Source of the DNA: Candidatus Tectimicrobiota bacterium | GTDB lineage: Bacteria; JACPSX01 | Direction of reading: 5' to 3' | DNA length: 14,624 nucleotides | Assembly: GCA_016193065.1 (NCBI GenBank) | Contig: JACPSX010000027.1 | Coordinates: 10,457-25,080, forward strand | Shown here: one piece after another, positions 1 to 14,624 of the stretch | How positions within the stretch are numbered: position 1 is the stretch's first letter | How the letters are laid out: every line of letters starts with the position of its first letter | The notes under the pieces: model-generated | Told to the model about the DNA's origin: nothing | The model's input: the letters and a program-made list of their open reading frames with translations, nothing else | The model's database searches: none | Made by a program: the position numbers and the translations under genes

Positions 1-369
1 GTCCGCGAGGCCCTCCTGCCTGCCCAGAGGCGGACCGCGGAGTGGGGGGGCGTGGTGGTGGACGGCAGAGACGCGGGCACGGTGATCTTTCCCGATGCAG
101 AGATCAAATTTTTCCTTGATGCTTCTCCGCGGGAGAGAGCCAGGAGAAGATACCTGGAGCTTAAGAACCGCACGCAGGGACTGGATCCATCCCAGGTTTT
201 GGAGGATCTCAACCGGCGGGATCTTCAGGACAGCCGGCGGGCCGCGGCCCCTCTCCAGATACCCAAAAACGCGGTGGTGGTTGACAGCACGGGGTTGACG
301 CCGGACGAGGTGGTGGCCCGGATGGTGGAGACCGTTTCCGCCTACCGGATGCCGAGCACCTGCGGGTAA
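1..369 (+). CDS. cmk: Cytidylate kinase, C-terminal part (5' end outside window)
   Basis: Cytidylate kinase phosphorylates CMP and dCMP to the diphosphates in the cytoplasm, using ATP. The frame is open from base 1 and ends with TAA at 367-369, giving 122 residues, about the C-terminal half of a protein usually near 220-230 residues. The P-loop half lies upstream of the window. Visible family signatures are a VVVDGRDAGTVIFPDAEIKF stretch (near residues 18-37; compare the family DGRDIGTVVFPDA), then an arginine-rich lid segment (RERARRRYLELK), a second lid-like NRRDLQDSRRAAAPL motif, and the final VVDSTGLTPDEVV motif. The next gene is rpsA, as in many proteobacteria; ispH, which sits between the two in some lineages, is absent here. 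Nothing looks broken in the visible part. Confidence 0.95.
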   Translation, partial: VREALLPAQRRTAEWGGVVVDGRDAGTVIFPDAEIKFFLDASPRERARRRYLELKNRTQGLDPSQVLEDLNRRDLQDSRRAAAPLQIPKNAVVVDSTGLTPDEVVARMVETVSAYRMPSTCG

Positions 370-9949: not shown

Positions 9950-10646
9950 GGATTTGCCGCCAAAATCCGGAGCCGCTTCAGGTCTTCAGGCCCGCTATTA
10001 TCCCGTCTTTCTTGACGTGGCTGGAAGGCGCTGCGTGGTGATTGGGGGTGGGGAAGTGGCGGAGCGTAAGGTGGAGATGCTCCTGGCCTGCGGTGCCGAG
10101 GTGACGGTGGTGAGTCCCCAGATGACTCCGAGGCTGGCGTTCCTCTCTCAGCAGGGGAGCATCCATCACGAAAAGCGGGAATTCTTCCTCTCTTGTCTGG
10201 AGGGGGCTTTTCTCGTCATCGGGGCCACCGATGATGAGAACGTGAACCACGCTGTTTGGCGGGAGGGGCAAAGCCGCCATCTCCTCGTCAACGTCGTCGA
10301 CGCCCCGGAGCTGTGCAACTTCATTGCTCCCGCTGTCTTTCAGCAGGGGGACCTGCTCATCAGCATCTCCACCAGCGGCAAGAGCCCGGCCTTGGCCAAA
10401 AGGATCCGCCAGGATTTGGAATCTCGATACGGGTCGGAATACGCGGAGTTCCTTAAAATCCTGGGAGACATGAGGGAACGGGTCTTCTCGGCAGTCCCCC
10501 AAGTGGAGCAGCGCAAGGAGGTCTTCGAGCGTCTGGTGGTTTCGGAAATCCTGGATCTCCTGCGCCAGGGCAACTCTGCGGAAGCACGGCGGCGGGCCGA
10601 AGAGATCGTGCGGCAAGCGGTTGAAAGCGCTCGGGGGAAGGGATAG
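9936..10646 (+). CDS. Precorrin-2 dehydrogenase / sirohydrochlorin ferrochelatase (Met8/CysG N-domain type)
   Basis: This enzyme oxidises precorrin-2 to sirohydrochlorin with NAD and, in bifunctional members, inserts iron to make siroheme. The 236-residue protein begins with a short extension, then [19 protein letters not shown] (21-39), a Rossmann fold with [14 protein letters not shown]. It continues with the catalytic Asp122 in [16 protein letters not shown] and the [14 protein letters not shown] motif (146-159). The C-terminal part (about 165-236) is a helical dimerisation tail ending in [19 protein letters not shown]. It lacks the methyltransferase domain of full CysG; that activity is encoded by the cobA part of the fusion about 3 kb downstream. 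The start overlaps nrdR by 14 bases with AAGGA 8 bases upstream. Its position before the ccsA-like gene and hemA fits a tetrapyrrole operon. The symbol is left blank because cysG, sirC and met8 are all used. Confidence 0.92.
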
Positions 10647-10651
10647 AAGGA

Positions 10652-11614
10652 ATGTCACTCCCGCTGGTCTACTACGGCATTATCCTTTTGTGCTACCTGG
10701 TGGGGTCTGTTTCCCACTGGGTGTACTTGAGTTCGCGGCGCCGCGAGCTGATGACTCTGGGCATGGCCGCCGTCATCACGGGCTTCGGGTTCCAGACGGT
10801 TCTGCTGGCCGTGCGGACACTGCGCTGGGGCCGCGTACCTCTCACCAACTTCTACGAATGGATGACTTTTTTTTCCTGGGCGATGATTCTTCTCTACCTG
10901 CTGGTCTATGGACGCTACCGTCTCAGAGCCCTCGGGGCGTTTGTCGTCCCCATGGCCTTCCTGGCCCTGGCCATTGTGGGAATCACCCCCCACGACGTCA
11001 CCGAGTTTTTCCCGGCCCTGGACAGCGTCTGGCTTTCCCTCCACATCTTTTTCTCTTTTTTGGGAAACGCGGCTTTCGCCCTTACCTTCGGGGTGGGAAT
11101 CATGTACCTCTTCCAGCAGGGGCAGCTTAAGTCCAAGAAGCTGGGCTCCCTCTATTTCCGCCTCCCCTCCCTGGAGATTCTCGATCAACTCAACTATCGC
11201 TCGTTGATGAGCGGGTTTCCCCTGCTCACTCTGGGATTGGTGATGGGTTCTCTCTGGTCACTGCACGTCAAGGGCACGATTCTCTGGGACCTTGCCCGGG
11301 TTCTCCCACAGGTGGTTTCCTGGGCCATCTATGCGTTTCTCTTCGTGGGGAGGCTGGGGATGGGCTGGCGGGGGAAACGGGCCGCGCTGGGATCGGTGAT
11401 CGGGTTCGTGGTGGTTGTCTTGGGTTACGCCCATTGCGGTGAGAGAGCAGATGGCTTTTTCCGAGGCGATGCTGGAGGAGTCTCTGGAAAGCCTGCGGCG
11501 GATCCCCGATCTGGAGGAAGGGGTCATTTTGTCGACCTGCAACCGGGTGGAAATCTGCGCTCATGTCTTGAACGGAAATCTGGGACTGCCTCAAATTCAG
11601 GAGTACCTGTGTAA
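10652..11614 (+). CDS. CcsA/HemX-like cytochrome c assembly membrane protein, apparently damaged 3' end
   Basis: Members of this integral membrane family act in haem handling for cytochrome c maturation (CcsA, system II) or affect HemA levels (HemX), and commonly sit before hemA. About eight hydrophobic segments are visible up to residue about 259. They include WLSLHIFFSFLGNAAFALTF (127-146) with a conserved-type His131, and the following YLFQQGQLKSKKLGSL and LPSLEILDQLNYR motifs. The tryptophan-rich WDPKE haem motif of true CcsA is absent; WDLARVLPQVVSWAIY takes its place, so HemX-like is a fair alternative. From about residue 260 the frame reads through hemA coding DNA in another phase, producing about 60 polar, glycine-rich residues of no family likeness. 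The natural C-terminus and stop seem to be missing. AAGGGA (10638-10643) is the likely SD. Confidence 0.8.
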   Translation: MSLPLVYYGIILLCYLVGSVSHWVYLSSRRRELMTLGMAAVITGFGFQTVLLAVRTLRWGRVPLTNFYEWMTFFSWAMILLYLLVYGRYRLRALGAFVVPMAFLALAIVGITPHDVTEFFPALDSVWLSLHIFFSFLGNAAFALTFGVGIMYLFQQGQLKSKKLGSLYFRLPSLEILDQLNYRSLMSGFPLLTLGLVMGSLWSLHVKGTILWDLARVLPQVVSWAIYAFLFVGRLGMGWRGKRAALGSVIGFVVVVLGYAHCGERADGFFRGDAGGVSGKPAADPRSGGRGHFVDLQPGGNLRSCLERKSGTASNSGVPV

Positions 11615-12674
11615 AGTTCACGGCATCGATCCGGCTGACGTTGGCCGGTTTCTCTATGCGTATCAGGATGCGCAAGCCGTGGCTCACGTTTTCCGGGTGG
11701 CGGCGAGCCTGGATTCCATGGTCGTCGGGGAACCTCAAATTACGGGACAGGTCAAAGATGCTTACGCCAGAGCCCGCAAATGCGGAGCCATAGGGCCGGT
11801 CCTGAGCCAGCTTTTCGACCGGGCGCTGGCCGCCGCCAAACGGGTGCGCACGGAAACGGCCGTGGGGGAGAGCGCCGTCTCGGTGAGCTTTGCCGCCGTG
11901 GAGCTGGCCCGCAAGATCTTCGGCTCCCTGGAGGATAAAGTGGTCATGCTGGTGGGGGCCGGAGAAACCGCCGAGCTGGCTGCCCGGCACCTGGTCAGCA
12001 ACGGGGTGAAAACTGTTTTTGTCGCTAACCGCACCTACGAGCGGGCGGTGCGGCTGGCCCAGGAGTTCGGCGGCAGCGCCGTGCACTTTGACCGCCTGGC
12101 TCAGGAGCTGAGACGGGTGGACATCGTGATTACTTCCACGGGGGCCCCGCACTACTTGATCGACCCGATTACCGTCCAGGAATGCATCCGCGTTCGGCGC
12201 CACCGCCCCCTGTTTTTCATCGATATCGCCGTGCCGCGGGACGTGGACCCGGCGGTTCACCAGATCGGCGACGTCTACCTGTACGATATCGACGACCTGC
12301 AGTCGGTCGTGGAGGCCAACCTCAAGGAGCGCGAGAAGGAAGCGGAAGTCGCCGAGAAGATTATTTCGGAAGAGGTATTCAAGTTCTGGGGATGGCTCGA
12401 AGCCAGGGATGCGGTCCCCGTGATTGTTTCCCTGCGCCAGTGGGCGGAGGAGATCCGCAGCCGCGAGCTGGAAAAAGCTCTGCAGCAGTTGGGACCCCTT
12501 TCGGAACGGGACCGGCGCACGGTGGAGATCCTGACCACTTCCATCGTCAACAAACTCCTCCATACTCCCATCGTGAACTTAAAGGATTCGGGGGAAAAAG
12601 TCGGGGAGAGGGGTCATTACCTGAAGGTTGTCCGCCACCTGTTCGGTCTCGGACGGAAAGAAGAATCATCATGA
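11415..12674 (+). CDS. hemA: Glutamyl-tRNA reductase, apparently lacking its first ~10 residues
   Basis: HemA reduces glutamyl-tRNA(Glu) to glutamate-1-semialdehyde, the first committed C5 step of tetrapyrrole synthesis. The frame from TTG 11415 gives 419 residues. From residue 5 (TPIAVREQMAFSE) it matches the family: catalytic Cys42 in LSTCNRVE, VFRVAASLDSMVVGEPQITGQ, the NADPH-binding VVMLVGAGETAELAARHL, VANRTYERAVRLA, FFIDIAVPRDVDP, and the C-terminal dimerisation helices. The first beta strand and the GLNHKTAP-type motif that should precede VRE are missing; E. coli has its catalytic Cys at 50. TTG 11415 is merely the first start codon after an in-frame stop at 11397-11399, has no clear SD, and may not be real. 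It overlaps the aberrant tail of the ccsA-like gene by 200 bases. The stop overlaps the hemC start (ATGA, 12671-12674). Confidence 0.87.
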   Translation: MSWVTPIAVREQMAFSEAMLEESLESLRRIPDLEEGVILSTCNRVEICAHVLNGNLGLPQIQEYLCKVHGIDPADVGRFLYAYQDAQAVAHVFRVAASLDSMVVGEPQITGQVKDAYARARKCGAIGPVLSQLFDRALAAAKRVRTETAVGESAVSVSFAAVELARKIFGSLEDKVVMLVGAGETAELAARHLVSNGVKTVFVANRTYERAVRLAQEFGGSAVHFDRLAQELRRVDIVITSTGAPHYLIDPITVQECIRVRRHRPLFFIDIAVPRDVDPAVHQIGDVYLYDIDDLQSVVEANLKEREKEAEVAEKIISEEVFKFWGWLEARDAVPVIVSLRQWAEEIRSRELEKALQQLGPLSERDRRTVEILTTSIVNKLLHTPIVNLKDSGEKVGERGHYLKVVRHLFGLGRKEESS

Positions 12675-13618
12675 GCGAGCCGGTAGTCATCGGAGCGCGG
12701 GGGAGCCCGCTGGCGCTCTGGCAGGCCAACTGGGTGCGGGGCGCCCTGGAAACAGCGCGGCCCGAGCTGCGGATCGAGATCCGCAAGATCGTCACCAGCG
12801 GGGACATGTTTGTCCAGGGTCCCCTGGCCCTGGCGGGGGGAAAGGGGCTTTTCGTCAAGGAAATTGAAATGGCTCTCCAGAGGGGGGAGATCGACCTGGC
12901 GGTTCATAGCATGAAGGACGTGCCTGCGGAGTTCCCCCCGGGTCTTGGAATCGGGGCAATCCCTCCCCGCCAGGACCCCCGCGACGTCTTCCTGTCCCGG
13001 CGCCGGATTCCCATTACGGAAATGCCTGCGGGTTCGCGGATTGGTACCAGCAGCTTGCGGCGCCAATGTCAGCTCCTTCACCATTTTCCCGGGTTTCGGA
13101 TCGTTGCCCTGCGGGGCAACGTGGATACCCGGATCCGAAAACTGCGGGAGGGGCAGGAACTGGACGGGATCGTTATGGCGGCTGCCGGTCTGAAGCGCCT
13201 TGGGCTGGAAGCGGAAATCGACCAGTTTCTGGAAGCCGACTTCCTCCTGCCGGCGATCGGACAGGGAGCTCTGGGAATCGAGGTCCGTCTGAAAGATACC
13301 CGGATCCAGCAGTGGGTGGCGGGTCTTAACGACCCCGATACAGCTCGTCAGGTCCAGGCCGAGCGCGCTTTCCTGAAGACCATGCAGGGCGGGTGCCAGG
13401 TGCCCGTGGCAGCTTTCGCAAGCTTGCAGGGAGGGGAGCTTATCCTGCACGGGCTGGTGGCTTCCCTGGACGGCCGGCGGGTGGTTCGGGACCGCGTTCA
13501 CGGCGACCCGGGGCAGGCGGTTGCTCTCGGAGTGCGGTTGGGAGAAAAACTCCTGGCCGCGGGCGGGCGGGAGATCTTGCAAGAAATCTTCGCGCCGGGA
13601 GCAGGTAAGACTTCATGA
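12671..13618 (+). CDS. hemC: Porphobilinogen deaminase (hydroxymethylbilane synthase)
   Basis: HemC polymerises four porphobilinogens to hydroxymethylbilane on a dipyrromethane cofactor. The 315-residue protein begins VVIGARGSPLALWQANWV and shows FVKEIEMALQRGEIDLAVHS then MKDVP (catalytic Asp83), GTSSLRRQCQL (125-135), ALRGNVDTRIRKL (146-158) and the cofactor-binding Cys242 in MQGGCQVPVAAF, the same number as in E. coli. The C-terminal domain is complete. ATG 12671 was chosen because it overlaps the hemA stop as ATGA and gives the family N-terminus; the frame is open much further upstream inside hemA, but that translation is a shadow. Its own stop overlaps the cobA ATG in the same ATGA form (13615-13618). 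Confidence 0.95.
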   Translation: MSEPVVIGARGSPLALWQANWVRGALETARPELRIEIRKIVTSGDMFVQGPLALAGGKGLFVKEIEMALQRGEIDLAVHSMKDVPAEFPPGLGIGAIPPRQDPRDVFLSRRRIPITEMPAGSRIGTSSLRRQCQLLHHFPGFRIVALRGNVDTRIRKLREGQELDGIVMAAAGLKRLGLEAEIDQFLEADFLLPAIGQGALGIEVRLKDTRIQQWVAGLNDPDTARQVQAERAFLKTMQGGCQVPVAAFASLQGGELILHGLVASLDGRRVVRDRVHGDPGQAVALGVRLGEKLLAAGGREILQEIFAPGAGKTS

Positions 13619-13629
13619 GCACAGGGAAG
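13615..13629 (+). other. Stranded start of cobA (first five codons)
   Basis: ATG 13615 overlaps the hemC stop and encodes MSTGK, a normal opening for a CobA that would continue K-VYLVGAGPGDP. Instead the frame passes into LAGSRRGDLRLAF, unrelated to the family, while the CobA body resumes in another frame at 13631. The first five codons therefore seem to be the true start cut off by a deletion. Confidence 0.7.
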
Positions 13630-13630
13630 C

Positions 13631-14624
13631 TTGCAGGAAGCCGACGTGGTGATTTACGACTGGCTTTCCAGCCCGGATCTCCTCTCCTTAGTCCCTGCCC
13701 ATGCGGAACTGATCTATGTGGGAAAGCGGGCGGGAATTCACACTCTCCCTCAGGACAAAATCAACCAGCTCCTCGTGGAGAAGGCCCGGGCGGGACTCCG
13801 TGTGGTTCGTTTGAAGGGGGGGGACCCGTTTATTTTCGGCCGCGGTGGGGAAGAGGCGGAGACGCTGGCAGGAGAAGGAATCGAGTTTGAGGTGGTGCCG
13901 GGGATTACTTCGGCTGTTGCTGTGCCCGCCTATGCGGGGATCCCTCTGACGCACAGGGAATTTTCTTCCTCTGTGGCCATTCTCACCGGATTTGAAGAGG
14001 GTGGGAAAAAAGAGTCGAGCATCGACTGGGAGAAGATCTCCACGGGTGTGGGCACGCTCGTTTTCCTGATGGGCGTCACGGCCCTGCCGCGGATCGTGCA
14101 GCAGCTCGTCCGGCACGGCCGGTCGCCGGATACTCCGGTGGCGGTCATACAGTGGGGCACGACCGCGCGCCAGCGCACCGTGGAGGGAACTCTGCGGACC
14201 ATCGTGGAACTGGTCAATGCGGCAGGGCTCAGGCCGCCGGCCGTGACGGTGGTTGGCGATGTGGTCTCCTTGCGCCGGAAACTGCGCTGGTACGAATCCT
14301 TGCCGCTGTTTGGCAAGCGCATTGTGGTAACCCGGGCCCGGGGGCAGGCCGGCCGGTTCAGCGAGCGGCTGCGGCAGCTCGGGGCCCAACCTCTGGAGTT
14401 TCCGGTCATTGAGGTCCTGCCCCCCGAAAGTTGGGCGCCTTTGGATGACGCCATTTCCCGGCTTTCTTCCTTTTCATGGCTCATTTTTACCAGCGCCAAC
14501 GGAGTCGGTTTTTTTGTGGAGCGGCTCTTCGCGCAGGGAAAGGATATGCGGGAGCTCAAGGGAGTCCGGGTGGCCGCCATCGGCAGCGAGACCTCTGTTG
14601 CTCTGGGCCAGAGAGGTTTAAAGG
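13631..14624 (+). CDS. Uroporphyrinogen-III C-methyltransferase / uroporphyrinogen-III synthase fusion, 5' deleted, 3' end outside window
   Basis: The CobA half makes precorrin-2 from uroporphyrinogen III with SAM; the HemD half closes hydroxymethylbilane to uroporphyrinogen III. The frame beginning at TTG 13631 gives 331 residues to the window edge with no stop. CobA signatures are LQEADVVIYDWLSSPDLL, YVGKRAG, RLKGGDPFIFGRGGEEAE (about 60-77), VVPGITSA, GIPLTHREF, LVFLMGV, AVIQWGTTARQRTVEGTL and VVGDVV. HemD starts near residue 236 with KRIVVTRARGQAGRFSERL and includes LIFTSANGV and AAIGSETSVAL. The N-terminal strand and the GPGDP SAM-binding loop are absent, apparently deleted together with the link to ATG 13615. 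As it stands, methyltransferase activity is doubtful, while the HemD domain could work if translated. TTG 13631 is only a conventional start; a pseudogene or an assembly error are both possible. Confidence 0.85.
   Translation, partial: MQEADVVIYDWLSSPDLLSLVPAHAELIYVGKRAGIHTLPQDKINQLLVEKARAGLRVVRLKGGDPFIFGRGGEEAETLAGEGIEFEVVPGITSAVAVPAYAGIPLTHREFSSSVAILTGFEEGGKKESSIDWEKISTGVGTLVFLMGVTALPRIVQQLVRHGRSPDTPVAVIQWGTTARQRTVEGTLRTIVELVNAAGLRPPAVTVVGDVVSLRRKLRWYESLPLFGKRIVVTRARGQAGRFSERLRQLGAQPLEFPVIEVLPPESWAPLDDAISRLSSFSWLIFTSANGVGFFVERLFAQGKDMRELKGVRVAAIGSETSVALGQRGLK

Follow-up and report, generated by a model that had tools for sequence, protein, structure and literature searches.

A 62-nt loss near the start of a cobA-hemD fusion gene in a draft Candidatus Tectimicrobiota genome is very probably an assembly artefact

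The cobA-hemD fusion gene at the end of one contig of a draft Candidatus Tectimicrobiota genome is broken close to its start, where 62 nt are missing from the deposited sequence. We consider it very probable that this break is an assembly artefact, produced by a join that lost about 62 bp and left no N behind, and it is almost certainly not a real feature of the organism; a real deletion is unlikely. This reading draws on a pattern seen across the genome rather than on anything observed directly at the join.

The stretch of DNA that we analyzed (the window; 14,624 nt) spans bases 10457 to 25080 of contig C11, which is 25,080 bases long, so that the right edge of the window is the contig end. 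The draft genome comprises 2.9 Mb in 294 contigs and is an estimated 86% complete; this degree of fragmentation and completeness suggests that it was assembled from a metagenome. The window carries, in order, the 3' part of cmk, rpsA, sppA, an IHF/HU gene, miaA, aroK, aroC, aroA, rpiB, glyA, nrdR, a gene for a siroheme synthase N-terminal domain, ccsA, hemA, hemC, and the cobA-hemD fusion. The names glyA and ccsA were assigned from the sequences of the genes themselves. No Rfam family matched within the window, and a phylum-wide search for sister genomes returned only the genome of the window itself. The nearest CobA-HemD relatives are about 55 to 60% identical, and many of them are labelled Deltaproteobacteria or Desulfobacterales. 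The features discussed below are listed in Table 1.

Table 1. Positions, in window coordinates, of the broken genes, the two cuts and the neighbouring features.
Feature	Position	Strand	Remark
cmk, 3' part	1..369	+	Directly follows NNNN; about 36 nt of coding sequence expected there
ccsA-like gene without C-terminal residues and stop	10652..11428	+	Frame continues into hemA to 11614
Second cut without N; ccsA tail and hemA start gone	11425..11428	+	11 homologous loci compared
hemA without its first ~12 residues	11427..12674	+	Sole glutamyl-tRNA reductase match in the genome
hemC, intact	12671..13618	+	TIGR00212 positions 2-291 of 293
cobA remnant, first five codons (MSTGK)	13615..13629	+	ATG overlaps the hemC stop
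Junction lacking 62 nt	13629..13631	+	Spanned by 21 residues in 98 of 100 homologues
Remaining cobA (SUMT) domain and beginning of the fused hemD	13631..14623	+	Open to the contig end

The anatomy of the junction is as the original prediction described it. The cobA ATG (13615 to 13617) overlaps the TGA stop of hemC (13616 to 13618) as ATGA, and the opening MSTGK can be read directly in the sequence, where the deposited frame continues as M S T G K L A G S R. CobA returns one frame over; read from stop to stop, this second frame gives A Q G S and then, from TTG at 13631, LQEADVVIYD. The roughly 20 residues proposed to be missing, SAM loop included, could be counted more closely, since in 98 of 100 homologous loci the GK-like position and the L of LQEAD are separated by exactly 21 residues; the remaining two escaped the search pattern, and by eye they show the same loop and spacing. 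Likewise, the suggested frame-breaking deletion of about 62 bases is exactly 62 nt long, because 63 nt are expected between AAG and TTG and a single one (C13630) is there, although the precise position of the join within 13629 to 13631 is uncertain by a few bases. Downstream of the junction, 331 codons are open to the contig end, with both the remainder of CobA and the beginning of HemD conserved, again as had been stated.

The SUMT family binds SAM through a GPGD loop. This loop reads GAGPGD in 86 of the 100 homologous loci, with minor variants in the rest. Because the loop and its spacing hardly vary, chance does not come into question for the missing segment. The N-terminal strand and the G-x-GPGD loop, present at fixed spacing in homologues, are both absent from the deposited cobA. 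Over most of the domain, the window copy nevertheless scores 280 to 284 bits against TIGR01469, whose curated cut-off is 185, with a match covering profile positions 23-24 to 237 of 238. It resembles the SUMT/CobA-HemD fusions of this family in its fusion to HemD and its place directly after hemC, but differs from them, as deposited, in lacking profile positions 1 to 22 with the SAM loop and in its broken frame. An 11-bp repeat, AAGCTTGCAGG (at 13420 and 13627), might have marked a deletion hot spot, but we set it aside as ordinary, since the window holds 19 pairs of 11-base repeats no more than 250 nt apart.

Another cut of this kind, absent from the original prediction, lies 2.2 kb upstream of the first. 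Here ccsA, which has lost its tail and its stop, runs into hemA in a different frame. In 11 loci that contain both genes, the aligned points in ccsA and hemA lie 68 to 176 nt apart, versus −2 nt here, and therefore 70 to 178 nt are missing. Homologous HemA proteins start with a short strand and the motif G-x-N/S-H-x-T, followed by A/T-P-V/I-x-V-R-E; the strand and the first motif are absent here. No decay is visible in hemA downstream of the cut. A hemA start within VVVVLGYAH was considered and discarded, as this segment aligns instead with the C-terminus of ccsA (GWRGKRAA...GF). There are thus two clean cuts within 2.2 kb, while the family matches of the other window genes tested extend over the full length, or almost, and show no comparable loss.

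We scanned coding frames in about 577 kb of the genome, sampled in stretches, and found further losses without N. In ilvB (L132), about 40 residues are lost between VGNDAF and PPGPVLVDLPKD, and there is a second small break; nuoL runs into nuoM (L147), leaving NuoM without roughly its first 17 to 25 residues; argB, at the argB/argD locus (L157), lacks a tail of about 18 residues; and about 35 residues are lost from cofC (L163). Smaller losses probably affect ubiD (L146), a reductive-dehalogenase-like gene and a muconate-cycloisomerase-like gene, those in the first two having been judged by eye. The breaks or losses without N include sites in L166 and L176. The scan flagged 20 sites in the 577 kb, compared with only 2, both weak, in 200 kb taken from a single-contig control genome, a genome-wide rate that is only rough because some flags are false: in L162, uvrA has a normal ATG start and the frame of otsB reads through. 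Breaks of the cobA kind thus also occur in the unrelated single-copy core genes hemA, ilvB, argB, nuoM, and cofC.

Nine runs of N, each of 4 to 60 bases, are present in the approximately 577 kb sampled, and the contigs are therefore scaffolds. One of them, NNNN at 10453 to 10456 of C11, lies inside cmk, immediately precedes the first base of the window and went unmentioned in the original prediction; the window start was evidently set by this run. E. coli CMK has 12 extra residues at this position, which makes the gap about 32 nt too short. As four Ns here stand for about 36 nt, gap sizes in this draft can fall short by tens of bases. By contrast, nuoH holds a run of 56 N, which we take to be about right for the spacing of the nuoH family.

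We prefer an assembly artefact because the breaks recur in unrelated core genes, the draft is scaffolded, one gap is mis-sized, and the broken genes show no secondary decay. A short-read assembler or scaffolder may have fused two contigs directly, the left one stopping a few codons into cobA and the right one beginning near its 27th codon, and such a join would drop about 62 bp without inserting N. A technical cause common to all the cuts, and this exact joining step, are what we infer from the pattern. Local assembly errors that leave incomplete or incorrect genes, and errors at scaffolding gaps, have been described in metagenome-assembled genomes (PMC7111523). The cobA case is like those errors in that short wrong or missing stretches at contig joins break genes in otherwise good contigs; it differs in that those errors were identified from reads, while ours is deduced from the structure of genes throughout the genome. 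The earlier statement that cobA carries a deletion accordingly holds for the deposited sequence and is probably wrong for the organism. It had also been proposed that the lesion is either very recent or not real, and the hemA cut, the undersized N gap, and the losses elsewhere favour the latter half.

The genome has a CobA paralogue, an intact standalone copy on contig C115 (L001:1438-2277) that is about 57% identical to the window copy and matches TIGR01469 from position 1 to 237. It adjoins an iron-sulphur (HdrD-like) gene and a multihaem cytochrome gene; the frame of the latter (L001:2325-3557), open for 410 codons, is interrupted only by an in-frame TGA at codon 55, which may be a sequence error, a genuine stop or a case of recoding. 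At L186 (contig C83:5892-6611), a 642-residue open frame includes another complete HEM4 (uroporphyrinogen-III synthase) domain. If the cobA lesion were real, the C115 paralogue could cover the function. We therefore weighed a real, recent 62-bp deletion that inactivated the SUMT domain and was tolerated since the paralogue supplies precorrin-2. The undecayed sequence past the junction fits a recent event, and slippage during a real deletion would account just as well for a few bases at the join that suit either side. We nonetheless regard such a deletion as improbable, as it leaves unexplained both an equal cut in the single-copy hemA and the losses in ilvB, argB, nuoM, and cofC. A scenario in which a genuine recent deletion marks the ongoing loss of SUMT from the operon, with the C115 paralogue taking over and the fused HemD still translated from an internal start, seems to us quite improbable.

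A working CobA variant might instead start at TTG 13631 and do without both the first strand and the SAM loop. TTG can serve as a start codon, its frame is open from 13619, and AGGGA stands a few bases upstream, but none of the 100 homologues lacks the loop, and without GPGD to hold SAM methylation would be expected to fail; we rate this as very unlikely. Programmed frameshifting between the two cobA frames, which do overlap at the switch with no stop between in the downstream one, has a negligible chance of being correct, because it cannot restore 21 missing conserved residues.

With an assembly artefact as the preferred explanation, the hemC-cobA/hemD junction of the organism is most likely an ordinary one that encodes the usual GAGPGD loop and a normal CobA. 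Read literally, the draft would point to a broken CobA and a broken HemA, and hence defects in the synthesis of siroheme, heme, and cobalamin. Spotting joins without N guards against such false claims of pseudogenes or auxotrophy, and for other frame breaks with short sequence loss in this genome a technical origin should be the default assumption until the reads have been checked.
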